A stretch of 45,525 nucleotides of DNA from contig JABIFY010000035.1 in assembly GCA_018650465.1 (NCBI GenBank), positions 1 to 45,525 of the forward strand, written 5' to 3'. Under the pieces are notes generated by a model, which made no database searches, had not been told where the DNA came from, and saw nothing but the letters and a program-made list of their open reading frames with translations. Each line of letters starts with the position of its first letter. Within the stretch, counting starts at the first letter, position 1. Position numbers and translations under genes: made by a program. Positions 19,184-36,161 of this stretch are shown piece after piece. The DNA comes from Alphaproteobacteria bacterium. Its GTDB lineage: Bacteria > Pseudomonadota > Alphaproteobacteria > UBA2966.

Positions 19184-19714
19184 ATGCAGTCGTCAACAAG
19201 CTTAACCGGTAATGAGCGAACTTTTTTACCAGACGAAATTATCGTTACCAAAACCGACCTGACCGGGAAATTGACTTACGTCAATCAAGTGTTCTTGCAG
19301 CTCGCGGGCTATTCTGAAGAAGAGTGCCTCGGGCAGCAACATAACATGATCCGTCACCCGGAAATGCCCCGGGCTGTGTTCAAGCTGTTGTGGGATACCT
19401 TGCAGTCCGGAGAAGAAATTTTCGCTTATGTGAATAACCGGTCCAAAAACGGTGACTATTATTGGGTCTTTGCCCATGTCACGCCCAGTCGGGATATTTC
19501 CGGAAATGTCGTTGGCTATCACTCCAATCGCCGGGTCCCGAACAAGCAGGTCATTCAAGAGCATATTGCCCCCTTGTACCAGAAATTGTTTGAGATTGAA
19601 AAGTCCAGCACGAGTGCAAAGGACGGATTGGACAAATCCTTCCAGGCCGTTGTTGATTTGCTGGCGGACAGCAAAATGACCTTCAATCAGTTCATGTTTT
19701 CCTTGGGAGTTTAA
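19184..19714 (+). CDS. Aer-type PAS domain protein
   Basis: 176 aa, soluble, no membrane segment. Residues about 15-125 form a PAS domain of the Aer/redox class: [14 protein letters not shown]-like opening ([17 protein letters not shown]), [18 protein letters not shown], and [16 protein letters not shown]. In Aer such domains bind FAD and sense redox state or oxygen; cofactor binding here is inferred. A short helical tail (about 130-176) follows instead of a signalling domain. AAGGGG precedes the ATG. The stop overlaps the chemoreceptor start (TAATG), so sensor and transducer are probably a split receptor made in equal amounts. Confidence 0.88.
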
Positions 19715-20916
19715 TGATGTTTTGGTTTAAAAAAGACAACAATGCGACTGAATTGCCGATCCTGGCCTCAGACATTGACCTGGAAGTTGAGATCGCCAAA
19801 GTATCGGCTGTGGCAAAAGCAGTTGCCAACGGTAACTTCGAAGCCCGGGTGACCCGCATCAATGATGCATCGCCTTTGGCAGCCCTGATGCACGACTTGA
19901 ACAATATGATTGATCGCACCGACGCTTACGTCCGCGAATCGATGGCCTGCATGGAGCATGTTGAGCGAAATCAGTATTGGCGGCAAATCATTGAGACCGG
20001 CATGGTCGGCTCATACGCTACCGCCAGCAAAACCGTAAACTCGGCTTTGGGTGCCATGGAACGCAAAGTCCAGGACTTTACAATTGTGGCCGACAACTTT
20101 GAAGAAACGGTCAAGCAGGTCGTTGAGACGGTTTCCAGTGCTGCCACCGAACTTACGGCCTCCTCTGAGGCGATGGAAAGTATAGCGGGCAATACCAGCG
20201 ACAAGGCGGTAATTGTCGCTGCCGCCGCTGAAGAAACATCGGCCAATGTAGGCACTGTCGCTGCCGCCTCGGAAGAACTGACATCTTCTATCGGCGAAAT
20301 CAGCCAACAGATCGCCAATGTGGCAGTCACAACCCGCAGTGCGACCGAACAATCTGAAACGGTCTCGACCCAGGTCTCGGCCCTGAATGAAGCAGCCGAG
20401 AAAATTAAAAATGCCGTCGGCTTGATTAACGATATTGCCGATCAAACCAATTTGCTGGCATTGAATGCAACGATTGAGGCAGCTCGTGCCGGTGACGCGG
20501 GCAAGGGGTTTGCCGTTGTCGCAAGTGAAGTCAAGGCATTGGCACAGCAGACCTCAAAGGTGACCGAAGAAATTGGCGGTTTTGTCAACGGTATCGAAGA
20601 CGCCATGCAGGAAACAATTGGTGGTATTTCCGAGATTACCAAAATGGTCGTTAAGGTCGATGAGGCAACGACTTCCGTTTCCGCTGCGGTTGAAGAACAA
20701 TCAGCGGCGACCAATGAAATTTCTCGCAATATTGATCAGGCCTCTGCCGGTACCGCAGAAGTTACATCAAATATTTCTGAGGTAACTGAATCGGCACAGG
20801 AAACCGGAAAATCTGCTGCCGAAGTCAATGGTGCCGCCAACGAACTTTCTCTCCAGTCAGAAAACCTGCGGGTTACGGTCGACAAGTTTCTCGATCAGGT
20901 GCGAAAAGTCGTTTAG
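19714..20916 (+). CDS. soluble methyl-accepting chemotaxis protein
   Basis: 400 aa with no signal peptide or membrane helix, so cytoplasmic. The N-terminal part (about 20-125) looks HAMP-like, with [14 protein letters not shown] and [16 protein letters not shown]. The MCP signalling domain (about 140-395) has the conserved CheA/CheW-contact tip [20 protein letters not shown] and [17 protein letters not shown], flanked by Glu/Ala-rich methylation helices. Starts at ATG 19714 (or 19717), overlapping the PAS gene stop. No che genes are in the window. Likely partner: the upstream PAS protein. It could signal to a flagellar or an alternative Che system. Confidence 0.93.
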
Positions 20917-20997
20917 TTCCAGCTATTGTGTGGCTGATTGTCCGCACAGAGATATCCCTTGTTCAGGCGATATTCATAATCAAGAATTGGAGTTTCT

Positions 20998-21306
20998 GTG
21001 AATTATTCTGTTCAAACCGACGCAGATGGCAAAACCTTTATTTTGACTGGTCGTCTGACTTTCAAGGATCATGCCGAAATTGCAAAAATAAAAACAGAAC
21101 TGGATGATCTTTCCATATCCCAGAAATGTGTATTCGATATGCAGGGGGTGGAGTTCATTGATTCGTCTGGCCTCGGTAGCCTGATTTCAATTGGGGAAGC
21201 TGTTGGGGGAAAAGAAATAGAGATCATGCTGCACCGACCACAGCCGAAAGTCCTTGGGATCATCAAGGCCTGTGGATTTGATACGATGTTCCGAATTGAA
21301 GAATAA
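20998..21306 (+). CDS. STAS domain anti-sigma-factor-antagonist-like protein
   Basis: 102 aa, a single STAS domain of the SpoIIAA/RsbV type. The phosphorylation loop is intact: FIDSSGLGSL with Ser56-Ser57, the second being the usual phospho-acceptor. Starts with GTG at 20998 with GGAG five bases ahead. In partner-switch systems the unphosphorylated STAS protein sequesters an HATPase kinase; the phosphatase and a receiver-HATPase encoded next to it complete such a set. Confidence 0.93.
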   Translation: MNYSVQTDADGKTFILTGRLTFKDHAEIAKIKTELDDLSISQKCVFDMQGVEFIDSSGLGSLISIGEAVGGKEIEIMLHRPQPKVLGIIKACGFDTMFRIEE

Positions 21307-21350
21307 CTTCAATTCAACACATGATTCATTCCCATGGTCGACATTGATCA

Positions 21351-22493
21351 ATGCCCGAAAATTTTGAAATCAATTTTGATGTCCTGAAACAGAACCTTGA
21401 GTTTCTGGATGAAGGACTTTTGATTGTTGATTCCGGATTGAAGATCGTCATTGCCAATCAGCGATTTGTTGAGCTTCTGGATATCCCCGAACGCATGAAA
21501 CAGTCGGGAACGACAATAGAGGAAATATTCCTCTACAAAGCTGAACGTGGTAATTATGGACCAGATCAGACTGAGGTTTTGGTTGCCTCAAAGCTGGCCC
21601 GGGCCCGCCTGATGCAGGCCCATCAATTTCGCTGGACCAGACCCGATGGAACGGTGGTTGAGGTCAAGGGTAACCCCTTGCCGGGTGGTGGGTTCATCAC
21701 CTTGTACCGGGATGTCACCAGGGACGCAGAGGAGACCCGGCTGCGTGCGGAAGAGTTGAACGCCGCTCATAAATTACAGACCAGTTTGATGCCTTCAGAT
21801 CGTTTTTTGCAGGGAATTGCGGCGGACTGCGGTTTGCAAATAAAGGCGCTGTGCAGGCAGGCTGACGAGGTTGGAGGCGATTTTTGGGGGCTGCATCAGC
21901 TGGACGAAAACCGGGTCGCCTTTTTTCTTGTTGATACTGTTGGGCATGGTCTTGTGGCGTCACTGAATGCCTTTCGCGTTCATACATTTATTTCGCAGTA
22001 TTTTGCCAATTGGCAATCACTTGATGGTTGGGTTGCCTGGGTGAACGGGCAAATGCTCGATTTGCTGGAAACGGGCCACTTCGCAACATTTGTATTTGGG
22101 ATTCTGGATCGCCAAAACAGACAGTTAACCTATGCGGCCGGGGGATATCCTCCTTTCCTTTTGGGACGGTTTGGCGATGAAGCTGATCCTGTATTTGCGG
22201 ATACGAAGGGCCTGCCTTTGGGCGTATCCAGGAATATGAAGTCAGAGATCAGGGAGCTATTGCTTCCCCGGGACTGGTCACTGCTGTTCTACAGCGATGC
22301 CTTGATCGAAGAAGAATATGATCACAAAAATTTCCTGGATGGCGATGTCTTGAAAGAGGTTTTTACACAGGGATGCATGGACGGAAATCCAGAGCATCTG
22401 TTTACGCGGTTCAATGAGATGGTGACTTCGCGGTTTCCGCAAGGGTTTTCAGATGACCTGACCGTGATCTGTGTCGGCGAAGCCGGGTTGTGA
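21351..22493 (+). CDS. PAS - SpoIIE-type PP2C serine phosphatase
   Basis: 380 aa, soluble. An N-terminal PAS domain (about 10-125, LEFLDEGLLIVDSGLKIVIAN and GGGFITLYRDVT) is joined by a short coiled segment to a SpoIIE/RsbU-like PP2C domain (about 145-378). Metal-binding aspartates are present: DEVGGDFWG, VDTVGHGLVAS and SDDLTVICV. Predicted to dephosphorylate the neighbouring STAS protein in response to a PAS-sensed signal. The ATG at 21351 lacks a clear ribosome-binding sequence, so translation may be weak or coupled. Confidence 0.92.
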   Translation: MPENFEINFDVLKQNLEFLDEGLLIVDSGLKIVIANQRFVELLDIPERMKQSGTTIEEIFLYKAERGNYGPDQTEVLVASKLARARLMQAHQFRWTRPDGTVVEVKGNPLPGGGFITLYRDVTRDAEETRLRAEELNAAHKLQTSLMPSDRFLQGIAADCGLQIKALCRQADEVGGDFWGLHQLDENRVAFFLVDTVGHGLVASLNAFRVHTFISQYFANWQSLDGWVAWVNGQMLDLLETGHFATFVFGILDRQNRQLTYAAGGYPPFLLGRFGDEADPVFADTKGLPLGVSRNMKSEIRELLLPRDWSLLFYSDALIEEEYDHKNFLDGDVLKEVFTQGCMDGNPEHLFTRFNEMVTSRFPQGFSDDLTVICVGEAGL

Positions 22494-22522
22494 GCGAACA
22501 GGGTTGTTGAGTTTGGCAGGCA

Positions 22523-23443
22523 TTGTTAAACAGGAGAGATAATATTTCAAAAGTCCTGATTGTAGATGACGAGATCAAGTTGCTTGAGACCCTCGCCGAA
22601 TTGATGAAGATCGGCGGGTTTGAAGTCGTGACAGCCTCGGATGGTATTGAAGCCCTGGCAGTGCTGGAAGCCAGCAATGGCGATATTGATGTCATCGTCC
22701 TGGATCGAAATATGCCCAATATGGACGGCTTTGAATTGCTGAAGATAATGAAGGGCAAACCCGCCTTCAAACATATACCGGCGATTTTTCAAACGGCACG
22801 AGGCGCGCCGGAGGATGTAGTTGCAGGACTGGAGCTGGGGGCCTTTTATTACATCACTAAACCGTACGATGTTAAGGTCCTGTTTGCCATTGCCAAAAGT
22901 GCCATTGACGACCAGCGACGCCTGACGGCCTTGAAGCAGGAAGTGCAAGACCGCGATGGTGCAATTTCGCTTATCAAGTCTGGAACATTCAGGTTCTCAA
23001 CCATGGAAGAGGCCGGAGAATTGGCCAGCCTTCTGGCTGTTGCCTGTCCAAATTCCGATGACGTTGCCATTGGACTTCAGGAACTGTTTCTCAACGCGGT
23101 CGAACACGGGAACCTTGAAATCAGTTACGCACAAAAGAAAAATCTGCTGATCGCGGATGAATGGGGTAATGAAATTAAACGACGCCTGGCAACAGGTGAA
23201 TACAAAGATCGCATCGCTGAAGTTCAATTCAAACGAGAGGTTGAAAGCATCACCTTTACAATCAAGGATGAAGGTGCCGGGTTTCTATCAGATCAGTATT
23301 TTGAGTTTGATCCGCTTCGTGCCATGGACCCCAACGGTCGCGGTATTGCCATGGCAAATAGTATCAGTTTTTCCAGTCTTGAATATTTGGGCTGTGGAAA
23401 CGAAGTAGTGGCGACTGTCTTGTTGCAGTCCGAAGGTATTTAA
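22523..23443 (+). CDS. response regulator with C-terminal HATPase (RsbW-like) domain
   Basis: 306 aa if begun at TTG 22523. A receiver domain (about 9-130) has VLIVDDE, phospho-acceptor Asp in VIVLDRNMPNMDG and the lysine in ITKPYD. The C-terminal half is a GHKL ATPase of the anti-sigma serine-kinase type: N-box LQELFLNAVEHGN, G1 IKDEGAGF and NGRGIAMANS. Predicted kinase of the STAS protein, switched by receiver phosphorylation. Start is odd: TTG 22523 has only a weak upstream AGG two bases away, while a strong AGGAGAG (22532-22538) lies inside the frame and points at an ATT codon at 22544, leaving ISKVLIVDDE. No ATG exists before the domain. Confidence 0.9.
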   Translation: MLNRRDNISKVLIVDDEIKLLETLAELMKIGGFEVVTASDGIEALAVLEASNGDIDVIVLDRNMPNMDGFELLKIMKGKPAFKHIPAIFQTARGAPEDVVAGLELGAFYYITKPYDVKVLFAIAKSAIDDQRRLTALKQEVQDRDGAISLIKSGTFRFSTMEEAGELASLLAVACPNSDDVAIGLQELFLNAVEHGNLEISYAQKKNLLIADEWGNEIKRRLATGEYKDRIAEVQFKREVESITFTIKDEGAGFLSDQYFEFDPLRAMDPNGRGIAMANSISFSSLEYLGCGNEVVATVLLQSEGI

Positions 23444-25465: not shown

Positions 25466-26261
25466 ACAATCTCAAAAAACACGACCTGTGCGTTTCCGCG
25501 GCGGGGGCTTCGCACCCAGGCCCCTGGGCATCATAGGCCCTTTCGTTTTTGCTGCTGTCATCGCCCTGTGGGAACTGGGGTCTCGCACGGGCGTGATTAG
25601 CGCTCTGGTCTTGCCTGCACCTTCGGAAGCCTGGGTCGCCTTTGAAGAATTGGTTCGTTCCGGTCTGCTCTGGAAGCACCTTGGTGCTTCCTTGCAGCGT
25701 TTGATCATTGGCTGGTCCAGCGGTGCCTTGCTGGGGGTAACTTTTGGTCTCGCCATCGGTCTGTTTTCTTTCGCCCGGGCCGGACTGGTTCCCCTGGTCT
25801 CGGCCATTTTTCCAGTACCCAAAATTGCCTTGTTGCCCTTGTTCATTATCTGGTTCGGTATCGGCGAAGGGGCCAAGGTTGCGACTATTTTGTTTGGTAC
25901 TTTCTTTCCCACGGTGATTGCGACTTACAGCGGTATCGACAATCTGGATCGGGGACTGGTGCGCATGGGGCAGTCCTTTGGCCTCAGCTGGTTTTCCATT
26001 GTACGCAAGATCATCCTGCCGGGGGCCTTGCCTGCCATTCTTTCCGGGTTTCGTATATCGGCCGCCGTTGCGATCATATTGTTGGTTGCCGCCGAAATGA
26101 TCGGAGCTGAATTTGGTGTCGGTGCCTATATCCTGATGGCAGGCAGCCTGATGGCAACGGACCAGTTGATCGCCGGTGTGGCGATGCTCTCATGCATGGG
26201 ATTAACGGTGGCCTGGCTCATCGGCCGGGCTGAGAAATTTTTGCTGCGATGGCGCGGTTGA
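25458..26261 (+). CDS. ABC transporter permease
   Basis: 267 aa, about six membrane segments, BPD_transp_1/SsuC-like. Begins at ATG 25458 inside the end of the ATPase gene, with GGAG upstream; an earlier in-frame ATG (25425) lies deeper in the ATPase gene and is unlikely. The EAA-type coupling loop reads MGQSFGLSWFSIVRKIILPGALPAILSG by segments (Gly and Pro conserved). Forms the importer with the two preceding genes. Confidence 0.94.
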   Translation: MAEQSQKTRPVRFRGGGFAPRPLGIIGPFVFAAVIALWELGSRTGVISALVLPAPSEAWVAFEELVRSGLLWKHLGASLQRLIIGWSSGALLGVTFGLAIGLFSFARAGLVPLVSAIFPVPKIALLPLFIIWFGIGEGAKVATILFGTFFPTVIATYSGIDNLDRGLVRMGQSFGLSWFSIVRKIILPGALPAILSGFRISAAVAIILLVAAEMIGAEFGVGAYILMAGSLMATDQLIAGVAMLSCMGLTVAWLIGRAEKFLLRWRG

Positions 26262-26425
26262 TGAATAGTCTCGCAAGTGTCAAATTTGCACAACACACGA
26301 TGGGGACGAGCCAGGTTATGCGTGTGCATGGCACAGGCGAAGTCAGTTATGACCTGCACGATGGTTTGGGCGATGGTCGGTCCATGCTCAAACATCTTTT
26401 CCAGCGCGTTTCTGACAAGGCGTAA
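26261..26425 (+). CDS. 54-codon small ORF overlapping the permease stop
   Basis: ATG at 26261 overlaps the permease stop as TGATG, and the frame runs to TAA at 26423-26425. The predicted 54-aa protein starts MNSLASVKFAQHTMG and ends LKHLFQRVSDKA; it is polar, with no membrane segment or known motif. Codon choice looks like neighbouring genes. The stop-start overlap suggests translational coupling to the importer. I do not recognise it; it may be a real small protein, a gene remnant, or chance. The rest of the gap to 26527 shows nothing. Confidence 0.4.
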   Translation: MNSLASVKFAQHTMGTSQVMRVHGTGEVSYDLHDGLGDGRSMLKHLFQRVSDKA

Positions 26426-26527
26426 AATCTTCGATCTTGATGAGGTTGCCAAATCATTTGAATTGAAGCAAGTATGATTGCTTGCGCCCAAACCGGGCTG
26501 TCACCTTCCTGATTTCTGCAGAAATAT

Positions 26528-27733
26528 ATGACTGATTCCCAGCGACTTATCCAGCGACCTGGTCTGTTCGTGCTGATTTGCATCACCATGATCGGCCAAC
26601 TGGCCATGAACATTACCCTGCCGTCTCTGCCGGGTATTGTGGAAGATTTTGGCACGACCGAGCCGATTGCCCAGCTTAATTTGTCGCTTTATCTGGTGGG
26701 TACGGCGGTTGCGCAGCTGATCTACGGTCCTTTGTCAGATCGTTTCGGGCGTCGGCCATTGGTCCTGATCGGCCTGATCATCTTTGTGCTCGGATCGGTT
26801 ATGTGTCTGTTGGCCTCAAACATTGAAACCCTGATCATCGGCCGGGTTATCCAGTCCGTCGGGGGCTGTGCCGGAATTGTGATGGGGCGGGCCATGGTGC
26901 GCGACATTTTCAGCACCGACAAAGCCGCCGCCATGATTGCCAACCTGACAAGTGCTGTGGTCATTGTGCCAGGTCTGGCCCCCTTAATCGGTGGGTATTT
27001 CGATGTCTGGTACGGCTGGCGCCTCAGTATCGCCTTTGTTCTTGTGCTCGGTGTGCTGATATTTTTCTATGCCTTGCGCGGCGCCCACGAGACACTTGCG
27101 GTAGAAAAGCGCCATGAATCCCATTTCTTCGAACTGTTGGCCGCTTTTGGCGTGCTGTTACGAAACCGGATTTTTACCGCCTACGCCCTGCAAGTCAGCT
27201 TCAATACGGGGGCTTATTTTTCCTTCCTGGGCGGCTCATCTATTGTTTTTCGGCTTATGGAGTGGGGCACGCCAGCTGAACTTGGCTTCTATTTCTTTGG
27301 CATTACCGTTTTCTACATTGGGGGGAATGTCATCACATCCAGATTTGCCCATCGGGTTGGTGCCGGAAAAATAAATCTGGCAGGTACAGTCGTTGCGATG
27401 TCTGGCATGATTATGCTGCTGCTGACGCATCTGGCCTTTGGTTTGGAAGCCCCTGTCTTTTTTGGCTTCGTCTGTTTTCTGGCCTTCGGCAACGGCATGT
27501 GTATCTCGACTGGTGTGGCCCTGGCAATTGGGGCTGATTCCCGGCGTGTAGGTGCTGCGGCAGGGCTTTCCGGCTCCTTGCAACTCGGATTCAGTGCGAT
27601 TGCGACTTGGGCTGTTAGTTTGCTTTTGACGGAGTCGCCATTTCCTCTTGTTTTGGCTATGCTGGCATTATGCTTTGGCGGCCTTGTGACTTCGGTTGCG
27701 GGAACTTTGCTGACGAAACGGACTTCGTCCTGA
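26528..27733 (+). CDS. MFS transporter, Bcr/CflA drug-resistance type
   Basis: 401 aa with about twelve membrane helices. Family marks: MNITLPSLPGIVEDF in helix 1, QLIYGPLSDRFGRRPLVLIG (the MFS motif A loop with DRFGRRP), VGGCAGIVMGRAMVRDIF and IVPGLAPLIGGYF. Drug/H+ antiporters of this family export compounds such as bicyclomycin, sulfonamides or cysteine; the actual substrate is unknown. No clear ribosome-binding site before ATG 26528. No regulator is adjacent. Confidence 0.92.
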   Translation: MTDSQRLIQRPGLFVLICITMIGQLAMNITLPSLPGIVEDFGTTEPIAQLNLSLYLVGTAVAQLIYGPLSDRFGRRPLVLIGLIIFVLGSVMCLLASNIETLIIGRVIQSVGGCAGIVMGRAMVRDIFSTDKAAAMIANLTSAVVIVPGLAPLIGGYFDVWYGWRLSIAFVLVLGVLIFFYALRGAHETLAVEKRHESHFFELLAAFGVLLRNRIFTAYALQVSFNTGAYFSFLGGSSIVFRLMEWGTPAELGFYFFGITVFYIGGNVITSRFAHRVGAGKINLAGTVVAMSGMIMLLLTHLAFGLEAPVFFGFVCFLAFGNGMCISTGVALAIGADSRRVGAAAGLSGSLQLGFSAIATWAVSLLLTESPFPLVLAMLALCFGGLVTSVAGTLLTKRTSS

Positions 27734-27811
27734 GTATTCTCCAGATATTTCAGGAATTGGTGCGATAATTGCATTAATTCATGAAATTACAGGGTATTTG
27801 AGTGTTTTTCG

Positions 27812-28864
27812 ATGAATATGTTTCAGAATAAACCAATTGGCGACTTGCTGGTGGAGCTTCGTGCTACATCTCGTGACGTTGTGGCACGCGCATTGGGTAT
27901 TCAAAAAGAAACCGGAGAACGCCTGGGCGCTATTTTGGTCCGATTAGGTCTGGTCGATGAGGACAAGCTCGAAACGGCGCTGGCGGTGCAAAGCGACAAA
28001 CGTTCGCCGCTTCGCCGCAAGTGGCTGGGCGAACATCTTGTTGAAATGGGCCTCGCGACCACCGACGCCATCAACAAAGCCATTGAGCATCAGAAAAAGA
28101 CGGGTCGCAGGCTTGGTGAAGCTTTGATGGAGCCAGGGATCGCTTCGGAAAAAGCGATCACGGGTGCCATCCAGAAGCAAAAAGAAGAAGCCTCTTCGGT
28201 TGGTAATCTGCTGGTCCGGATGGGTGTGGTTAATGAATCACAGTTATCTTATGCCTTGAAATTACAGGCATCCGGCGGCGGTCGCATTGGTGATACGCTG
28301 GTTGAACTGGGCCACATAGACGAAGACTCGCTGAACCAGGCACTGGGGCTTCAGAAACTTATCCGTCGCGGCATATCCATTGCCCTTGTCTCGGCTGCTA
28401 TAACAGGTGCCACAGCAAGTACTGCTTCAGCGGCGACGCAGGGCGATATGGCGTCAGATTCTTCAGCTTCTTCAACAATTAGCGTTGTGATCCCGGAGCG
28501 TGCCAGCATCAATATCGGATCGGGCGGGGGCGCTGATGGTTCAAACCAGCAAATTGCGGTCGAAGGCGGCCAGGTCGATATGACCTTCAAGGGACAATCC
28601 TACCTTAAGGGCGCAACAACAGTATCAGCCATGGGTATGGGCGCAGATGGCGAATTTGTCCTGCAGGATGCCAGTGGCGAAAAGGTCGGCTTTAATTTGA
28701 CGTCTTCTACGGGCGAAAATGCGGGTGGGATTTCGCCCAATCAGAATATACAGCTGGCCGATATCGGCAATCTGAACATCGACTTCCCGCAAGGCGGTGA
28801 CAAGACCGGTGGTGCCGGTAATGTTTATTTTGGCGTCGTGACCCTGATGGTCTCGCCGCAATAA
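27812..28864 (+). CDS. six MshEN-type repeats fused to a membrane segment and a pilin-like domain
   Basis: 350 aa, no cysteine. Residues 8-181 are six 24-residue copies of the MshEN pattern (xLGxxLVxxGxxxxxxLxxALxxQ): 8-31, 37-60, 71-94, 100-123, 129-152, 158-181, with spacers of 5, 10, 5, 5 and 5. The 24-5-24 spacing is that of the c-di-GMP-binding N-domain of MshE/PilB-type ATPases, but no ATPase domain follows. Arg precedes the LG/IG pair in copies 2, 4 and 6. Then comes KLIRRG, a hydrophobic segment (about 187-207) ending ASTASAA, and a Ser/Gly/Asp-rich domain that ends GVVTLMVSPQ, like the endings of the two downstream pilins. Predicted topology: repeats in the cytoplasm, C-domain in the periplasm, either anchored or cleaved after the hydrophobic segment. 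First gene of the fimbria locus. Confidence 0.8.
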   Translation: MNMFQNKPIGDLLVELRATSRDVVARALGIQKETGERLGAILVRLGLVDEDKLETALAVQSDKRSPLRRKWLGEHLVEMGLATTDAINKAIEHQKKTGRRLGEALMEPGIASEKAITGAIQKQKEEASSVGNLLVRMGVVNESQLSYALKLQASGGGRIGDTLVELGHIDEDSLNQALGLQKLIRRGISIALVSAAITGATASTASAATQGDMASDSSASSTISVVIPERASINIGSGGGADGSNQQIAVEGGQVDMTFKGQSYLKGATTVSAMGMGADGEFVLQDASGEKVGFNLTSSTGENAGGISPNQNIQLADIGNLNIDFPQGGDKTGGAGNVYFGVVTLMVSPQ

Positions 28865-28907
28865 GCCTTTATCTGCCCCTCAATCACTTCATTTTCTGAC
28901 TGTTTGG

Positions 28908-28938
28908 ATTCTGCGCAGGCAACATGCAGGCGCAGAAT
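28908..28938 (+). terminator. hairpin downstream of the MshEN-pilin fusion gene
   Basis: ATTCTGCGC pairs exactly with GCGCAGAAT around a 13-base loop that contains GCA/TGC. It starts 44 bases after the stop. No T-tract follows (TGTGGGG), so termination would be inefficient or factor-dependent; it may instead protect the mRNA end. Confidence 0.4.
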
Positions 28939-29058
28939 TGTGGGGATTGTGTCAAAATGATACTAGTGGCACATGTATTTTGAATAGGTCCGAAATGAAC
29001 CATTTTGCATCATTCTGAGGCGGTTTCTAATATTTTATCAAAAATTTGAACTAAATTG

Positions 29059-29075
29059 AAACAGGTGTCCTGTTT
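29059..29075. promoter_or_regulatory. inverted repeat AAACAGG-TGT-CCTGTTT, possible enhancer site
   Basis: Perfect 7-base arms with a 3-base spacer. Its centre is about 80 bases before the -24 element of the predicted sigma-54 promoter, inside the range where sigma-54 activators bind. The activator itself is not encoded in the window. Confidence 0.4.
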
Positions 29076-29145
29076 TGTGTATTTGATGAAATGAAAAATA
29101 CCGCAGTATTCAGCCAAAAACGATGTTTCAAGTCGAATGTCATTC

Positions 29146-29162
29146 CTGGCATCCTATTTGCG
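29146..29162 (+). promoter_or_regulatory. candidate sigma-54 (-24/-12) promoter of the major pilin gene
   Basis: CTGGCAT-CCTAT-TTGCG keeps the invariant GG (29148-29149) and GC (29160-29161) at the required spacing (TGGCA, then TTGC). Transcription would start near 29173, leaving an untranslated leader of about 120 bases before the pilin ATG. A match of this size can occur by chance, but it lies in the right place. Confidence 0.5.
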
Positions 29163-29295
29163 TTAACCAATACACATAAGTTATTCGATGGTTTTGGTTT
29201 TTGTCGCAAGTCTCTGAATTATGAGAATAAATAGCAAATCTAAAGCCTGAACAAGACGCCAAATTAGACCGCTTACATATTAGGAGCTATTCGAG

Positions 29296-29841
29296 ATGGG
29301 TATCATGAAAAAAGCAGCGACTGTTGCACTGTCTGCCGCCATGCTGGCTGGCACTGCAATCGCACCGGCCCTTGCTGCAACTAACGGCACAATTGGTTCG
29401 TCATCTACCGGAACTTCAACAATCACAGCCTTTGTTGGCTCGCTGGTTCGCGTCAGCGCCGTGGATGATCTGGACCTCGGTTCATGGTCGGGTTCAGGTG
29501 ATCTGACCCAGGCTGATGACGTTTGCGTCTGGACCACGACTGGCGGCTATAATATTACAGCAACCGGCGATGGCGGCACCGGAAGTGATTTTGCACTTAA
29601 TAACGGCACACAAGATCTGGCATATTCAGTGAAATGGGGCGACTCAGCTGGTGCGGCTACTGACGGCCTGACTTCGGGTAGTCCTTTGGGCGGCCAGGTT
29701 TCCGGTGCAAACTCAACTGATTGTAACTCGGGCACCAGCCTGACAGCGACCGTTGAAGTTGAAATTCTGGGCGCCGACCTGTCAAGTGCAGACAGCGGCA
29801 CCTACACAGGTGTTCTGACGCTCGTTATCGCGCCTGAATAA
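29296..29841 (+). CDS. major fimbrial subunit, secreted pilin-like protein
   Basis: 181 aa. Sec signal peptide MGIMKKAATVALSAAM... with cleavage after PALA (about residue 27). The mature domain is a Gly/Ser/Thr-rich beta protein with two cysteines (DDVCVW and TDCNSG), as in chaperone-usher subunits of the spore-coat-U/DUF4402-like kind, and ends GTYTGVLTLVIAPE. About 30 residues (ATNGTIGSSS, then an alternating hydrophobic STITAFVGSLVRVSAV) precede the DLDLGSW core and could be the donor strand. AGGAG lies nine bases before ATG. Directly followed by a terminator, so it should be the most abundant transcript of the locus. Confidence 0.82.
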   Translation: MGIMKKAATVALSAAMLAGTAIAPALAATNGTIGSSSTGTSTITAFVGSLVRVSAVDDLDLGSWSGSGDLTQADDVCVWTTTGGYNITATGDGGTGSDFALNNGTQDLAYSVKWGDSAGAATDGLTSGSPLGGQVSGANSTDCNSGTSLTATVEVEILGADLSSADSGTYTGVLTLVIAPE

Positions 29842-29858
29842 TCTGACATTATAGAGGA

Positions 29859-29895
29859 GGGCGGGCGTAGCACGAAGGCAACGTCCGCCCTTTTT
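29859..29895 (+). terminator. intrinsic terminator between the two pilin genes
   Basis: Stem GGGCGGGCGT / ACGTCCGCCC (one G-U pair), 12-base loop, then TTTTT at 29891-29895. It begins 17 bases after the major pilin stop. Partial read-through would give low expression of the second pilin and usher. Confidence 0.88.
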
Positions 29896-29931
29896 CTGTT
29901 CGTGAAGCCTTGATGTCGATATGTTACGGTG

Positions 29932-30474
29932 ATGTTTAGCAAAAAGGTCCTTGGGATGATGTTGTTTGGCAAAGACCGATATCGGAAACTTGTTGGTTCC
30001 GCCTGTCGCTCTAACTTGATCGGGGTGGCGGTTTTTTTTCTGGTTGGCATATTGTCCCTTCCTGCCATTGCTTCTGACAAAATTATCATCATGGATCTGG
30101 ATGATATTGATCTTGGGACCTGGACCGGTGCTGCTGAACTCAGTGAGGAATCCGTTCACTGTGTTGCAGCAACAGACAAGTATTATTCTATCGTGGCAAC
30201 GGGCAGCGGTATTGGCGGGACTTTTCGTGTTTCCAGCGGTGATGCCGAAATACCTTATCAGGTCTATTATAAAGAAAAAAAGAACGCCAATCTGATCCAG
30301 CTTACAGCCGGGTCAGCTATCCACAATCTGAAGGGCAAAAAAATCAAAAAGAAGAAGCCCTATTGCAAGAATGGCAAGCAGGTTGTTGAAGTTCGGATGC
30401 TGGGTGTTGATCTGGCCAAAGTGCCGGCGGGCGCGTACTCTGGCACGCTAAGTTTGATGGTGACACCGCAATAA
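29932..30474 (+). CDS. minor fimbrial subunit, pilin-like protein
   Basis: About 180 aa. Start uncertain: GTG 29929, ATG 29932, or ATG 29956/29959, the last pair preceded by AAGG. A signal peptide (NLIGVAVFFLVGILSLPAIAS) ends near SDKI. The mature part aligns by eye with the major subunit: DIDLGTWTGAAEL versus DLDLGSWSGSGDL, two cysteines (VHCVAA, PYCKNG), ending GAYSGTLSLMVTPQ. Differences: only about ten residues lie before the DIDLG core, so the donor strand seems missing, and a lysine-rich patch GKKIKKKKPYCKNGKQ lies in the middle. Possibly the tip or the assembly-initiating subunit. Confidence 0.78.
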   Translation: MFSKKVLGMMLFGKDRYRKLVGSACRSNLIGVAVFFLVGILSLPAIASDKIIIMDLDDIDLGTWTGAAELSEESVHCVAATDKYYSIVATGSGIGGTFRVSSGDAEIPYQVYYKEKKNANLIQLTAGSAIHNLKGKKIKKKKPYCKNGKQVVEVRMLGVDLAKVPAGAYSGTLSLMVTPQ

Positions 30475-30579
30475 TAGTTCCATGGGTTAAAATTCCCGGG
30501 AGATGGCTTTTGGGTTAATCTTTTAATAAGCATAACAGGCTCTACTTGTCTGCTCAGCTTATTGATATGAAACACTAAA

Positions 30580-33500
30580 TTGATATTTGAACACCTCATA
30601 TCCCCGCGGAAATCGCGGGATGTAAAGGCTCGAATTGCGTCAGCTTTTCGGCAGGTGTTTGCTTTTGCCTTATGCCTTTCCTTGTTGCCGCCCGCTTCAA
30701 TGCCGGCGGGTGCTGAATCAGCCATCAAAACAAGTGCTGCACCCAAAGGGTTTGAAAGTCTGACTGAGCCGCAGACAACATTGGTTGATGTATTCTTTGC
30801 CGGCCGGCCCATCGCTTCGACGTTGGCCACCTTCACCGCAGACACAATTACAATCGCCAATCCCCTGGAAGTTGTTTCCAACATCCCGAATGTGAAAAAC
30901 AGTGAAACAGTTCTCACGTCACTGACGGGGGAGCTGAATTCAAATACCGATCTGGTTTGTCCTCAAATTACCGAAAAAGTTTCGGCAGAAGTTCGCAAGG
31001 CTCTGATGGCGGATTGTGGCCGCTTGTTGCCAAAAGTAGCCGCAATCATATTTGACGAGAGCAAATTTCGTCTTGATGTCTATGTCGGCCCGGAATTTCT
31101 GTTTGTCCAAAAACTGGATCTGAACCGGTTTCTACCGCCATCGGATGCGGATGCATCTTTTCTGACCTCTTTCGGCGGGGCCATGTCCGGGTCGGACGAA
31201 GCCAAAAACACCTATAGCTTCAGCAACCAGACTATCTTTGGTCGGGGTGAAGCACGACTGCGCATAAATAATAGTTACGCGTCAACCGATCACTGGATCC
31301 TCGACACTGTTACCGGTGAATTTGACCGCAATGAACAGCGATTTGTCATTGGTGCCATGCGGACCCGATCCATGGATACAATCGGTGAATTCAAGATGTT
31401 GGGTGGGCGCTTCACGACAACAACGGATACACGTCTTGATTTGGGTGTTGGTTTCGGCAGTCAGCTTGTTGTGTTTCTGCCGCGCGATGCCCAGGTTGAC
31501 ATATTAAAGGATGGTCGCCTTGCCGCGACCAAATTTTATCAGGCGGGTAAAACGACCCTGGATACCAGTCGACTTCCGGACGGCGCTTATGATGTGACAT
31601 TGCGCATCAAGGAAGCAGGTGGCGACACACGTGAAGAAAGCCGTTTCTATGTTAAAACGGCGACTTTGCCACCGGCCGACTCACCTCTTTATTATCTGGA
31701 AAGCGGCATCTTGTTGTCTGAGGATAGTCCGCCTTATCCCGAACTGAACAAGGTTGGTCTGATCCACGGCGGTACGTTCTGGCGATTGACAGAAAACCTC
31801 GGCGTCGGTGGCGATCTATTGGCGGGTGAAAACGTCATCGTGGGCGAGGCCAAAGGCCTCTACCTGGGACGGGATATGAAAATAAACGTGGCCGGTGTGA
31901 TGTCCTCAGATCTTGATTTGGGGGCAACGGTCGGCGCGACAGGCGAAGTGTGGGATGTAACCTATTCCCTGTCAGTACGTCGGAATTGGTCGAGGGAAAA
32001 AAGTTCGACAACGGCGATCTTTGACCCGCTTGGTCGATCCTCCACCCAAATCCGTGGTAACTTGAATTATCAATGGGGCGAAGCGCAATGGTCGCTGCAG
32101 GCGTTGTCTCAAACCAATGACAATGCGGACGATACATGGTCCTGGGGACCGTCGCTTAGCTATCCAGTTTATCGCGACGCTGAGTGGAGCGCATTCATGC
32201 GGGCAGAAGCGACCCGCAGTGAAAGTGAATCTGTGGCCATGGCCCGTTTTCAAATCCGCTTCAATGAACCGCGCTGGTCGGCAACTGCCACCGTGGCAGC
32301 AACCGATAACAACAGTGAGACATCTGTAGGGAATGATAACGAAGGTGTATTTGGCGATGGCTCAGCAAATGTAGCCTGGCGTGATCTGGACTACCTGCCA
32401 GGTGATCTGACCCTGGGTGCAGGCGTCAATGCTGCCCAGCGTCAGCGATCCATGACAGGCAAAGTGGATTATACCAGCCGCTGGGGTAAATATTCCTTTG
32501 ATGTGGAAAACTCCTGGGGCGAAAGCAGTTCAACGCGTTGGGGCAGTAACATCGCGACGTCGGTCATTACGAACGGCGACATCATCGCTTTCGGTGGTCG
32601 GGAACGCCAGGACAGTGGCATTGTTATCTCGTTGGATGGCACGTCAAAGAAGGCTGAATTCAATGTAATGGTTGATGGCTCGAACAAAGGTGTCGTAAAG
32701 GTTGGTGATCGCTTGCCTGTCTTGCTGTCTCCCTACAATACCTATGTCGTACGCCTGGAGTCGGCCGGGGGGGACTTTGTCTCTTTTGATTCTGAAAATC
32801 GGGATATTACCCTGTACCCCGGAAATATTGTCGGTGTCGTCTGGACAATCAATCCTATTATCGCTGTCTTTGGTCGCATCATCCGTGAGGACGGAACACC
32901 TGTGGTCTTTGCCAGGGTCGACGATGCAGGCAAGGGGACCTTTACTGATGATCTCGGTTACTTCCAGACGGAACTTAGCAAGCCCGGTACTTTTATGGTT
33001 CGACCGGCTGAAGGTCAGGCTTGCGAAATTGTTGTGCCTGCCTTTCCGCCCGATCAGGATTTTGCAGACCTGAAAGATTTGGTGTGCATTGATGTGCTTC
33101 TTGAGGCCAACCAATCGCCAGGTGACAAGGACAAAAATATCCAGGTTGCGGACGCCGGGAAGGAAGACGGAAAAAAGGAATTTGATTGGGCGCCGGTGAT
33201 ATCTGCTTACAAGAAAAAACTTGAATCCAATACAGTAGAAGACAAGTCCAAATCTAAAGAAAAACCTTCCGGGAGAAACTTCTACAAAAAATCTGATGAT
33301 GTTCAAACGGCAGATGCCAAAGATACGCCGGCTGAACCTCTGTTACGCAAAACTGAAACAGTTCCTGAAGCCAAAGTGGACAAGCCAGTTGTTGTGGCCT
33401 CGGTTGCACCTGCCGTAAAGCCTGAGGTGACCTTGCCGGAACCAACGTCGATTGAGCCTGAAGGCCCGGCAGTGGTTTCCATCCCTGTGCCGGAGGTTGT

Positions 33501-34377
33501 CGTGGAGACCCCCCCGGTTATTGCACCCGTTGTGACATCCGGGCCTGACAAGGTTACAGGCAGTCCAAGAAATCTATTGGCAGCAGTCCCTGAAATTTTG
33601 ACTACCCCGGAAGTGGCGACAATTCCTGATGTGCCAACAGTGGAGGAAGCAACCAGTGAAAGGCCTGCGTGGCTTGTGCAACTGGTTGCCCTGCGCCGCC
33701 CGGACAGATTGCGGGACGCATGGCGGCAAGCGTCTGACAAAGCATCGGGTCGTCTGGATCGCCAGACCGCCTATATGGCCAGAGCCGATCTTGGTGACCG
33801 GGGCACGTTCTTCAGATTGCAAACCGGGGAGGCGACAGACCGTCAATCGGCGCAAGACCTGTGCAACGAATTGCAGGACAAGGGCCTGACATGCAGGGTG
33901 GTAAAAACAAAGGCGGCAGTCCTGAGTGATGAAGGTGCGGCCAAATCATTTTGCGCCCTCGAAGGAACCTCGTCCTGGGCACCGTCGTGTCAACCTGGTC
34001 TGGTCGGAACGGCGTCTGCTTCTCCCTCCAAAGCAGGCGCGGCTTCAGGGCGGTCCACACCGCAATCTGAGTTATCGCAGCAGCCTGACCCGAAGCAACA
34101 GCCGACAGAGGCACTGGATATCCTGGGTCCAGAATATCGTGTGCAACTGGGCTCTCACTTGACCGCGCAGGATGCAATTGATGACTGGCGACGGATTGAG
34201 AACTTGTCGGAAGGTTTTTTAACCGGGCTGGAACCAGAAGTCGCCCAGGTTGATCTAAAGCGACGCGGGATCTGGCATCGATTACAAGTGCGTATCCCGG
34301 AAGGTCGCATTGCGGCGCGCAACCTGTGTGACAATTTAACGGACCTCTCGGTTTCCTGCCTTGTGGTGCGCCGTTAG
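30580..34377 (+). CDS. TcfC/CooC-type outer-membrane fimbrial usher with two C-terminal SPOR domains
   Basis: 1265 aa if begun at TTG 30580; no good ribosome site, and the true start may be slightly downstream. Signal peptide to about residue 46 (FALCLSLLPPASMPAGA). Usher N-domain (about 55-190), barrel interrupted by an E-set-like plug domain (about 295-365, VFLPRDAQVDILKDGRLAA), barrel strands to about 690, and a CooC_C-like C-domain (about 690-845, VVWTINPIIAVFGRIIRED and FTDDLGYFQTELS). Usual ushers end here. Then a Lys- and Pro/Val/Glu-rich linker (about 850-1028) and two SPOR domains: 1029-1109 (AWLVQLVAL ... GLTCRVVK) and 1185-1265 (EYRVQLGS ... SVSCLVVRR). The added part would lie in the periplasm and could bind peptidoglycan. 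Confidence 0.87.
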   Translation: MIFEHLISPRKSRDVKARIASAFRQVFAFALCLSLLPPASMPAGAESAIKTSAAPKGFESLTEPQTTLVDVFFAGRPIASTLATFTADTITIANPLEVVSNIPNVKNSETVLTSLTGELNSNTDLVCPQITEKVSAEVRKALMADCGRLLPKVAAIIFDESKFRLDVYVGPEFLFVQKLDLNRFLPPSDADASFLTSFGGAMSGSDEAKNTYSFSNQTIFGRGEARLRINNSYASTDHWILDTVTGEFDRNEQRFVIGAMRTRSMDTIGEFKMLGGRFTTTTDTRLDLGVGFGSQLVVFLPRDAQVDILKDGRLAATKFYQAGKTTLDTSRLPDGAYDVTLRIKEAGGDTREESRFYVKTATLPPADSPLYYLESGILLSEDSPPYPELNKVGLIHGGTFWRLTENLGVGGDLLAGENVIVGEAKGLYLGRDMKINVAGVMSSDLDLGATVGATGEVWDVTYSLSVRRNWSREKSSTTAIFDPLGRSSTQIRGNLNYQWGEAQWSLQALSQTNDNADDTWSWGPSLSYPVYRDAEWSAFMRAEATRSESESVAMARFQIRFNEPRWSATATVAATDNNSETSVGNDNEGVFGDGSANVAWRDLDYLPGDLTLGAGVNAAQRQRSMTGKVDYTSRWGKYSFDVENSWGESSSTRWGSNIATSVITNGDIIAFGGRERQDSGIVISLDGTSKKAEFNVMVDGSNKGVVKVGDRLPVLLSPYNTYVVRLESAGGDFVSFDSENRDITLYPGNIVGVVWTINPIIAVFGRIIREDGTPVVFARVDDAGKGTFTDDLGYFQTELSKPGTFMVRPAEGQACEIVVPAFPPDQDFADLKDLVCIDVLLEANQSPGDKDKNIQVADAGKEDGKKEFDWAPVISAYKKKLESNTVEDKSKSKEKPSGRNFYKKSDDVQTADAKDTPAEPLLRKTETVPEAKVDKPVVVASVAPAVKPEVTLPEPTSIEPEGPAVVSIPVPEVVVETPPVIAPVVTSGPDKVTGSPRNLLAAVPEILTTPEVATIPDVPTVEEATSERPAWLVQLVALRRPDRLRDAWRQASDKASGRLDRQTAYMARADLGDRGTFFRLQTGEATDRQSAQDLCNELQDKGLTCRVVKTKAAVLSDEGAAKSFCALEGTSSWAPSCQPGLVGTASASPSKAGAASGRSTPQSELSQQPDPKQQPTEALDILGPEYRVQLGSHLTAQDAIDDWRRIENLSEGFLTGLEPEVAQVDLKRRGIWHRLQVRIPEGRIAARNLCDNLTDLSVSCLVVRR

Positions 34378-34395
34378 ATAGTGCGCCGTTAGAAT
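34366..34395 (+). repeat. 15-bp tandem duplication across the usher stop codon
   Basis: GTGCGCCGTTAGATA at 34366-34380 is followed at once by GTGCGCCGTTAGAAT (34381-34395). The last three codons (Val-Arg-Arg) and TAG stop are thus copied in frame, giving a second stop five codons later. Confidence 0.85.
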
Positions 34396-34404
34396 AATCC
34401 GCCC

Positions 34405-35088
34405 CTAAAATTCCTTAAGCAGGATATCGTCACGCACGGATACATAATAAACCGCCGGTGTGTCATACTTTAATTCGGTCGTCCATTCGGTATTCACATA
34501 CATTCGCTTCGGCGGCAGATCAACACAGTTCTTGCCGTCTGCATCACAGTTTTTACCATTGGACAACAGGACACTTGTTTGTCCCGGATTTGTGAAGGTA
34601 ATCTTTTTGCCGTCTCTCGTGGACTGCAGATTTCCCTTTGCTCCAGACGGGCGGACCACGACCAGGACATCATAACCGATCACAATTTTTACGGCGGTCT
34701 GGTTGGCTTTCACATCGCCAACAACGGGCCGCACGGTCAATCGATACACCCGGTCCATCTTTTCAGCCGGGCGCAGAACAACAAGGCGCATGATCTTGGT
34801 TTGTTTGGCTTGCAGCACAAACCTGTTTGGCGTGACCAGCAACCCGGCTTTTCCAGGGTCTCTGATCTTCTCCCGCTTTTGCTGTTTTGTGCCTGGATTG
34901 AGAATTTGAAAAGGCTCTACCAGTACGAACAACGTCTCGTCGCCCGTATTCTGGATTTTGATGTCGTCACGGGGAACCTTGTCACCAGGGAAATCGATCA
35001 CAACCTTGTTCAGCACCATGTCAGCCTGAGCCGGACTGATGACGCCGGCAAGCATCACAGCAATCAGGAATAGCATCCATTTTTGCAT
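34405..35088 (-). CDS. PapD-like periplasmic fimbrial chaperone
   Basis: 227 aa from ATG 35088 (a GTG one codon earlier is also possible). Signal peptide MQKWMLFLIAVMLAGVISPAQA then DMVLNKVVIDF. Two-domain chaperone features: an N-terminal Ig-like domain with VTPNRFVLQAKQTKIMRLV (the F1-G1 edge strand that donates to pilins) and VYRLTVRPVV, and a second domain with KITFTNPGQTSVLLSNG and a cysteine pair NCDADGKNC. Convergent with the usher, only 27 bases between stops. Its start overlaps the stop of the preceding dioxygenase-like gene (TGATG), so it must be transcribed separately from the usher and pilins. Confidence 0.88.
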   Translation of the reverse strand: MQKWMLFLIAVMLAGVISPAQADMVLNKVVIDFPGDKVPRDDIKIQNTGDETLFVLVEPFQILNPGTKQQKREKIRDPGKAGLLVTPNRFVLQAKQTKIMRLVVLRPAEKMDRVYRLTVRPVVGDVKANQTAVKIVIGYDVLVVVRPSGAKGNLQSTRDGKKITFTNPGQTSVLLSNGKNCDADGKNCVDLPPKRMYVNTEWTTELKYDTPAVYYVSVRDDILLKEF

Positions 35089-35456
35089 CACTGTTCGTCC
35101 TCAAAAATATCCAGCTTCAACGTCATCTTATCTCCGAACCAAATAGCGTGATCGCGGTGGTCTTCAAGATCATGGCCTGTATTGGGGTGCAGGAATACCA
35201 CAAGATTATCACGGTTCAATGCCAGCCACGGCGCGATTTTGCCAAAAACCTCTGGCTGGAAGGCAACCTGGTAACTCCAGCAAGGGTGGGGGCCGACAGT
35301 TTTTTCGTGAAAGCGGCCCATTTCCATCTCAAATGTTTTTTCGATCTGCTCCCGCAGCGCCCACGCCCGGTCCTTACTGTCCGCGTCAAAATAGACGTGG
35401 GCATGATAGCTCTCAATTTTTGCAGGGTCTTGTATATTAGTCTCGGACAGACTCAT
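35088..35456 (-). CDS. DOPA 4,5-dioxygenase family protein
   Basis: 122 aa, cytosolic, whole-length match by eye to the small DOPA 4,5-dioxygenase-like family (PF08883 type): ESYHAHVYFDADSKD, MGRFHEKTVGPHPCWSYQ and LHPNTGHDLEDHRDHAIWFG, which supply several potential metal-ligand histidines. The fungal relatives cleave the ring of DOPA; the bacterial function is unknown. It overlaps the chaperone gene by the TGATG junction, an unexpected pairing. Its promoter should lie in 35457-35526. Confidence 0.85.
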   Translation of the reverse strand: MSLSETNIQDPAKIESYHAHVYFDADSKDRAWALREQIEKTFEMEMGRFHEKTVGPHPCWSYQVAFQPEVFGKIAPWLALNRDNLVVFLHPNTGHDLEDHRDHAIWFGDKMTLKLDIFEDEQ

Positions 35457-35526
35457 CCCGGGAAACCATCTCCTGTGACGCGGTAAAGGGCAATAAACGA
35501 AATATGGCTTGCATAGTGCCCATTCA

Positions 35527-35982
35527 TCAAGCGATGGGCAAGGCGCGGTCTTGCTTGATGGCCTTCAGGGCGAAGCTTGTATCAACGCGTTCAACGCCCG
35601 GCATATGGGCCAATTCACTGCGCAAAAAGATATCGAAGGCCGCCATGTCGGCGCACATGACGTGCACCAGATAATCCTGGCCGCCACTCATGGCATAACA
35701 CTCAATGACTTCGGGTCGCTTTTGCACGGCGGCCTCAAAGCCTTCCGCCTTGTGCAGGTTCAGCGATACATAAACAAAAGCGTTTAAACCCAAGCCCACA
35801 GACTGGGGCCGCACGACCGCCGTGTAGCCACGAATAATACCGGCTTCCTCCAGGCGTTTTTTCCGCCGCCAACAGGGTGACGTCGACAGCCCGACACGTT
35901 TGGCAAGATCCGCCATGGCGATGCGACCATCACGCTGAAGCTCCGCCAGAATCTTAATATCATAGCTATCAAGTTGGGCCAC
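35527..35982 (-). CDS. Lrp/AsnC family transcriptional regulator
   Basis: 151 aa from GTG 35982, the normal family length. The frame is open to an ATG at 36153, but the extra 57 residues are unlike the family and would run across the divergent promoter. N-terminal AsnC-type HTH (LDSYDIKILAELQRDGRIAMADLAKRVGLSTSPCWRRKKRLEEAG) and C-terminal RAM effector domain (AFVYVSLNLHK, YAMSGGQDYLVHVMCAD). Divergent from the indolepyruvate ferredoxin oxidoreductase gene, which it probably controls in response to an amino acid. Confidence 0.92.
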   Translation of the reverse strand: MAQLDSYDIKILAELQRDGRIAMADLAKRVGLSTSPCWRRKKRLEEAGIIRGYTAVVRPQSVGLGLNAFVYVSLNLHKAEGFEAAVQKRPEVIECYAMSGGQDYLVHVMCADMAAFDIFLRSELAHMPGVERVDTSFALKAIKQDRALPIA

Positions 35983-36161
35983 AGCAAATTTTTCCAATAA
36001 AATGATCAATTTTGGTAATATATTCCAATATAGCGGAAAATTGAACAAATATTGCAGAGATTTTTCCCAATTATCAGTCGTATCATTTTGGATTGATACA
36101 AAGTTTGGACTAGTTCCAGACTGCAAAATAAACCGCACATTGCAGGCAGGCAAAACGCTTT
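35983..36161. promoter_or_regulatory. AT-rich divergent promoter region, lrp-type gene / ior
   Basis: 179 bases, strongly AT-rich between 35990 and 36060, where TTGG and CCAA words recur in inverted order (for example TTGGTAATATATTCCAA). This is the expected site for the Lrp-type regulator to control itself and the oxidoreductase. No precise operator can be fixed. Confidence 0.4.

Follow-up and report, generated by a model that had tools for sequence, protein, structure and literature searches.

The window, a 45,525-nucleotide stretch of alphaproteobacterial DNA, contained a gene whose product carries three pairs of MshEN motifs ahead of a signal-peptide-like segment and a domain homologous to the fimbrial subunits encoded downstream. 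We hypothesized that this fusion protein is a chaperone-usher subunit precursor with its own cytosolic receptor, and that c-di-GMP gates whether the attached protein is exported or released; we assign this reading a probability of about 0.45. The parts of the gene were located as follows.

27812..28864, forward strand: fusion gene (MshEN, predicted signal peptide, pilin), 350 amino acids, ATG start
27833..27991, forward strand: MshEN pair 1, residues 8–60, first motif degenerate, second perfect
28022..28180, forward strand: MshEN pair 2, residues 71–123
28196..28354, forward strand: MshEN pair 3, residues 129–181, aligning with MshE (5htl) and leading directly into the predicted signal peptide
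28355..28432, forward strand: internal signal-peptide-like segment KLIRRGISIALVSAAITGATASTASA, residues 182–207, with Arg at +4 past the last Gln
28433..28861, forward strand: predicted mature fimbrial subunit, residues 208–350, beginning with an N-terminal stretch that resembles a donor strand and may act as one

The repeat region held six 24-residue motifs, at residues 8–31, 37–60, 71–94, 100–123, 129–152 and 158–181, exactly where the first-pass annotation had placed them. The spacers, which it had described as mostly of 5 residues, were of this length in four of the five gaps and of 10 residues in the other (61–70, between pairs 1 and 2), which gives three 24-5-24 pairs. Scored on 11 consensus positions (PMC5013675), the motifs reached 6, 11, 7, 7, 10 and 10 in order. 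Five windows scored at least 7, whereas 5000 shuffles of residues 1–183 averaged 0.084 such windows and never gave more than 2; motif 8–31, with its score of 6, was by itself within chance (shuffles averaged 0.76 windows of 6 or more), and the published relaxed pattern matched two of the six motifs exactly (at 37 and 100). The MshEN identity read from the letters was borne out by NCBIfam, in which NF053729 ('c-di-GMP_motif, MshE-related') matched three stretches with E = 3.8e-43 and 145 bits, far over the cut-off of 38, but not by Pfam, which gave neither an MshEN nor a pilin match and returned sub-threshold DUF4388 and FumaraseC_C alone. PilF and MshE (5htl) were among the phmmer matches of the fusion protein to solved structures. 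The protein had been described as free of any ATPase, and no ATPase domain was matched in Pfam or NCBIfam; the NCBIfam matches to PilB, EpsG, PRK15489 and NfrB spanned just their MshEN stretch (for PilB, profile positions 2–53). As a side observation, Pfam DUF4388 recurrently gave weak matches to the MshEN motifs of several proteins, and the two families may be related.

An AlphaFold model of the whole fusion protein, built from three sequences, had a mean pLDDT of 46, with the repeat part mostly at 53–78, and could be used in its repeat half alone. When this low-confidence model was searched with Foldseek, 18 of the 19 top matches were PilF, MshE or PilB chains, many of them c-di-GMP-bound and all with E > 0.06. 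c-di-GMP-bound PilF and MshE chains from crystal structures superposed on the model at 0.8–1.3 Å over 56–59 columns (probability 1.00, E > 0.06), and the top-ranked chain, apo PilF, superposed poorly (7.8 Å).

Judged by sequence, the repeats are likely to bind c-di-GMP. Gln was kept in all six motifs, and motifs 37–60, 129–152 and 158–181 retained 10–11 of the 11 consensus positions. The consensus Arg was absent from the first motif of every pair (P8, W71 and S129) and Ile replaced both key late Leu in both motifs of pair 2, so the affinity may be weak or lost. If the repeats no longer bound c-di-GMP, they could still act as a prefix for oligomerisation or localisation, or as one that folds slowly, and in this way delay export or gather subunits. 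These substitutions fit such a role and there is a precedent, since the available portion of PMC5013675 reports that binding has been lost in some MshEN domains, XpsE for example; the same portion also states that conservation of the motifs may not have to be perfect. The near-complete motifs, the strong purifying selection acting throughout the repeats (see below) and the retention of both Arg of a pair by several related prefixes in other genomes make this loss of binding unlikely, and we rank it second among the rivals.

The orthologue in a second species (G001; L025/L072; JABILA010000105.1) was intact, 86–87% identical and set in the same gene order from the fusion to the chaperone. Over the 350 codons of the fusion gene, dN was 0.083 and dS 1.75. 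All three parts, i.e. sensor, junction and mature subunit, are under strong purifying selection, with dN of 0.077, 0.082 and 0.091 and partly saturated dS of 1.36, 1.74 and 3.45. Differences between the two genes at codon positions 1, 2 and 3 numbered 39, 17 and 184. A chance fusion, a pseudogene or an assembly artefact without function would agree with the rarity of the fusion among genomes with a TcfC-type usher (2 of 17), but given this intact orthologue, the shared gene order and the codon pattern it is highly improbable.

The exported half, the C-terminal 143 residues, showed full-length homology to the subunits encoded downstream (hhalign 95%, E = 2e-8, 132 columns), with a score of 51.6 compared with at most 17.2 in 100 column shuffles. 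The alignment ran from ATQGD/ATNGT to the last residues, and the sensor therefore stands before a complete prepilin. The resemblance to two downstream subunits, which the first-pass annotation had seen in the ending of the domain, thus extends over its whole length. Its suggestion of DUF4402 or SCPU fell away, as neither matched the fusion protein in Pfam; SCPU matched weakly in two of six neighbouring or related subunits (best E = 0.037). AlphaFold gave a poor model of the mature half from seven sequences (pLDDT 36). Among solved structures, neither the profile of the mature half nor that of the neighbouring pilins had a convincing match, the best (E = 0.034 and 1.2, respectively) being to unrelated-looking molecules.

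Between sensor and pilin lay, as first read, the sole hydrophobic segment of the protein, now placed at residues about 187–207. The segment KLIRRGISIALVSAAITGATASTASA starts with positive charge, continues with a hydrophobic core of about 10 residues and ends in a tail of small residues, ASA, before ATQGD; the tail of the second-species orthologue reads AAA before ATQGD. Because the sequence downstream aligns with the mature N-terminus of the next pilin, the segment has the appearance of a normal prepilin signal peptide, predicted cleavage site included, and not of a designed anchor. No in-frame ATG, GTG or TTG occurred in residues 150–212 of the window protein or 138–212 of the second-species protein, and the nearest upstream starts (residues 137, 139 and 149) would each retain the last motif. 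Therefore, no version with the signal peptide but without the last motif can arise from a standard start, and an internal start yielding a plain pilin was rejected for lack of a standard start codon in residues 150–212 of the window protein.

The junction between the last MshEN motif and the hydrophobic segment was compared among 15 proteins of this layout, including orthologues, and 47 other MshEN proteins. Arg stood exactly at +4 from the last MshEN Gln in 13 of the 15, which are not 15 independent cases (window and G001; the three LapG-like proteins; G545 and G512; G442, G629 and G560), and in none of the 47, which were MshEN proteins of at least 430 amino acids met in the analysis rather than a random sample. 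A hydrophobic stretch came next in all 15, which is no test since they were chosen for the layout, and in 3 of the 47 controls. The near-copies L094 and L098 were left out of the 15. Since the Arg keeps this near-fixed distance, the ligand-contacting helix seems to pass into the signal peptide without a break. A crude signal-peptide rule marked 19 of 77 distinct MshEN-pair ORFs, not including the FecR-like protein described below; three long proteins that it marked (L042, L059 and L071) were judged false. A tree of the MshEN pairs (53 columns) did not separate one origin of the layout from several (p-AU 0.38).

The main rival to a gated precursor is an uncleaved signal anchor, which would keep the protein in the inner membrane with the sensor inside and the pilin-like domain outside; c-di-GMP would change the periplasmic half, and this half would act on the chaperone, the usher or the fibre base, a form of inside-out signalling as put forward in the first-pass annotation. 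A single hydrophobic segment following a predicted cytosolic sensor would suit such a protein, as would the continuous helix that AlphaFold draws over residues 171–208, a region of low confidence; by eye, two of the 15 relatives, L006 (FecR-like) and L024, had no clear cleavage motif. The other 13, pilins and LapG-like proteins included, combined a short hydrophobic core with a small-x-Ala tail by eye, and in the fusion protein the site is followed by a mature pilin N-terminus, which a tethered subunit would not need. We therefore consider the anchor somewhat unlikely. Of the earlier label 'transmembrane protein', the one hydrophobic segment stands, but a cleavable prepilin is likelier in view of the short core, the ASA tail before ATQG and the pilin N-terminus.

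The same order of MshEN pair, signal peptide and exported domain recurred with passengers other than pilins, namely LapG-like proteases, a FecR-like protein and PA3740-like proteins. This recurrence was missed in the first reading.

L062:8061-8987, L063:8394-9350 and L064:7639-8604: MshEN, signal peptide and LapG-like cysteine protease, in three genomes from a single alphaproteobacterial family
L095, L097, L098, L101 and L122:5393-6112: probable PA3740 orthologues or relatives, with a signal-peptide-like segment straight after MshEN

The LapG-like proteins matched Peptidase_C93 over the cut-off (E = 2.5e-22 to 1e-21) and the NCBIfam LapG model with E = 1e-31 to 2e-26, although with only 93–110 bits against its equivalog cut-off of 320. 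In each of the three genomes the fusion was the only Peptidase_C93 match. The window's genome and G001 had one Peptidase_C93 match each, that of G001 without an MshEN prefix. The FecR-like or retention-module-like passenger was found in G081, with both matches below cut-off. In all, the layout was present in at least 8 of 385 genomes in a search of the class, and short-protein passengers occurred in at least 8 genomes in a search of the phylum (398 genomes); mainly matches with short frames were read, so that the numbers of genomes with the layout are lower bounds. Of four short passengers tested, three gave weak matches, two to DUF6160 (E about 0.01) and one to FilA (E = 0.012).

The PA3740-like proteins shared the junction Q-x-x-[LV]-R. 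The neighbourhood of one of them, in G442, read by eye as ffh, rimM, rplS, a thioesterase gene, the PA3740-like gene, an antiporter gene, xerD, dsbC, hom and thrC, an order that we take to fit PA3735–PA3746 of P. aeruginosa; for this reason the G442 protein is probably a PA3740 orthologue. As the signal-peptide-like segment directly follows MshEN, the uncharacterised half of PA3740-type proteins is probably exported. The available portion of PMC5013675 describes PA3740 as a protein of swarming motility that contains MshEN, within which a c-di-GMP-binding LxxxLxxQ motif was identified at 55–62, and a second, uncharacterised domain.

The first-pass annotation had placed the fusion gene in a chaperone-usher neighbourhood, which was found as follows.

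29147..29161, forward strand: sigma-54-like element TGGCATCCTATTTGC, in a 431-base gap before the next pilin, within a 23-base block kept in both species
29296..29841, forward strand: ordinary prepilin-like subunit with an N-terminal signal-peptide-like start and the mature start ATNG...
29929..30474, forward strand: second fimbrial subunit-like protein, role putative
30580..34377, forward strand: TcfC-type usher of the outer membrane, with CooC_C and, as an addition at the C-terminus, a SPOR domain
34405..35091, reverse strand: PapD-type periplasmic chaperone (PF00345, E = 2.7e-6, over cut-off)

The usher matched PF16967 (E = 8e-15), PF15976 (E = 1e-6) and PF05036 (E = 5e-8), all over their cut-offs. 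The chaperone additionally matched the TcfA-like model PRK15308 (E = 1.1e-6), but weakly and well short of the cut-off of that model. The product of 29929–30474 is possibly the tip subunit of the fibre, because its N-terminal extension appears to be missing. The conserved sigma-54-like element upstream of the ordinary prepilin suggests that this gene is transcribed separately from the fusion gene, with the pattern found three times in the window compared with 1.1 expected and thus not clearly rarer than chance. No Rfam family was detected in 26000–36500 at E ≤ 0.1. The window's own genome gave 12 matches to GGDEF, including a few that were partial or contained stops. Two further features were observed. 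The usher carries an extra C-terminal region of about 430 residues with the peptidoglycan-binding SPOR domain (about 33667–33903), also present in the G001 orthologue and, to our knowledge, unusual for an usher. At 19184–23443, genes for PAS, MCP, STAS, PAS-SpoIIE phosphatase and REC-HATPase proteins followed one another in an arrangement that resembles a partner-switching signalling cluster.

A survey for the fusion beside TcfC-type ushers, proposed in the first-pass annotation, recovered it in the second species but found it to be rare. TcfC-type ushers were matched in 17 of 376 alphaproteobacterial genomes (15 over the cut-off, two below), and the fusion lay within the usher cluster in two of these, both of the window's genus. 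The other 15 neighbourhoods, some of which end at contig ends, contained no fusion; five of them (L129, L131, L134, L137 and L138) encoded ordinary prepilins whose mature start, by eye, is ATQG. One relaxed pair match in these 15 was a membrane exchanger by eye and was counted as chance. A scan of genome contigs gave 13 loci, comprising one orthologue, one distant fusion and 11 other MshEN proteins, mostly traffic ATPases.

With two usher models, G000, G001 and G074 had one usher match each, in the same cluster as the fusion gene. In G074, which belongs to a different family, the gene for an MshEN-prefixed protein (L016) stood divergently beside those for a chaperone, an usher (PF00577) and an SCPU subunit; pilin likeness of the exported half of L016 was not detectable by sequence. 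Among 43 genomes of the order of G074, proteins of the signal-peptide type were found in G074 only (E ≤ 1e-9; matches with short frames were those read), and three other short-frame matches were of other kinds. G349 encoded two fusions, one clearly homologous to pilins (32.0 compared with a shuffle maximum of 17.1) and one (G349:C22, L024) with a marginally pilin-like exported half (21.6 compared with 17.5, and below the shuffles with the other profile). Neither usher model detected an usher in G349.

In the proposed precursor, the three MshEN pairs would form a cytosolic c-di-GMP receptor directly ahead of a Sec signal peptide, and the protein would insert N-in/C-out. Within about 5 residues, the last MshEN helix, in which the Leu and Gln positions are the known c-di-GMP contacts, would reach the signal peptide, so that binding could either promote or impede Sec-channel engagement or signal-peptidase cleavage. 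After cleavage, an ordinary mature subunit would pass to chaperone and usher, and the sensor would remain behind. The supply of the fusion subunit to the fibre would then follow cytosolic c-di-GMP post-translationally. The direction of the gate can be guessed from the LapG-like passengers. LapG-type proteases free adhesins at low c-di-GMP, as established for LapD–LapG. If one rule held for all passengers, c-di-GMP would withhold the passenger, because LapG should be off at high c-di-GMP, and the fusion subunit might be a brake or terminator of the fibre.

More tentatively, the recurring layout might point to c-di-GMP-gated signal peptides as a general class in Pseudomonadota, with a small MshEN receptor joined to a Sec signal peptide through a near-fixed junction in which the last Gln is followed by two residues, then a hydrophobic one, then Arg. 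In each member, c-di-GMP would decide post-translationally whether the passenger, be it a fimbrial subunit, a LapG-like adhesin protease, a FecR-like or a PA3740-like protein, leaves the membrane. Were this class real, second-messenger control would reach protein export itself, precursor by precursor. The pairing of MshEN with exported proteins suggests that cells may couple export directly to c-di-GMP. A working gate would constitute a new control point, the ligand-gated export of single precursors, offer a usable design for switchable secretion and suggest a purpose for the uncharacterised half of PA3740-type proteins.

MshEN, TcfC fimbriae and LapG are already known. Among the matches listed in the literature searched, no description was found of MshEN before the signal peptide of a pilin or of LapG, and MshEN and chaperone-usher systems were co-mentioned in a reference list only; the view that such control has no described precedent in chaperone-usher systems is in line with this. 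The available portion of PMC5013675 lists MshEN fusions to ATPase, glycosyltransferase, REC, HD-GYP, CheA, CheX, cyclase and kinase domains. Control of chaperone-usher fimbriae by c-di-GMP is known at the level of transcription, through MrkH in Klebsiella (PMC3161979, in the part available). With the sensor built into the subunit precursor, control could need no new transcription and act on one subunit only.

The fusion protein shares the 24-5-24 repeat with MshEN of MshE/PilB/PilF-type ATPases and NfrB (NF053729; 5htl, 8pfa), and its low-confidence model suggests that it may have their helical fold as well. Unlike MshE, PilB and NfrB, it has no ATPase or glycosyltransferase, and its MshEN part is followed by a predicted signal peptide and an exported domain. 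PA3740-like proteins have MshEN, the Arg junction, the signal peptide and an exported domain in common with it, but one pair instead of three, and their exported half is not a recognised pilin, with weak FilA or DUF6160 matches at best in relatives. The cluster resembles those of alpha-type (TcfC/CS1-like) fimbriae in its usher (PF16967 and CooC_C), PapD-type chaperone and prepilin-homologous subunit, whereas here one subunit has an MshEN prefix and the usher has SPOR. Large secreted adhesins with extended signal peptides likewise carry an extra N-terminal segment before the Sec signal peptide, but these extensions are about 25 residues long and are not known to contain a ligand-binding domain. 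A functional parallel would be LapD–LapG, which likewise passes a cytosolic c-di-GMP state to a periplasmic adhesion function. In a search of 8 genomes LapD_MoxY_N gave no match, but neither did the control. No LapD_MoxY_N domain was found in the fusion protein with Pfam or NCBIfam, and a LapG-like protease with an MshEN prefix could do without LapD; in contrast to LapD–LapG, the sensor is here fused to the effector itself.
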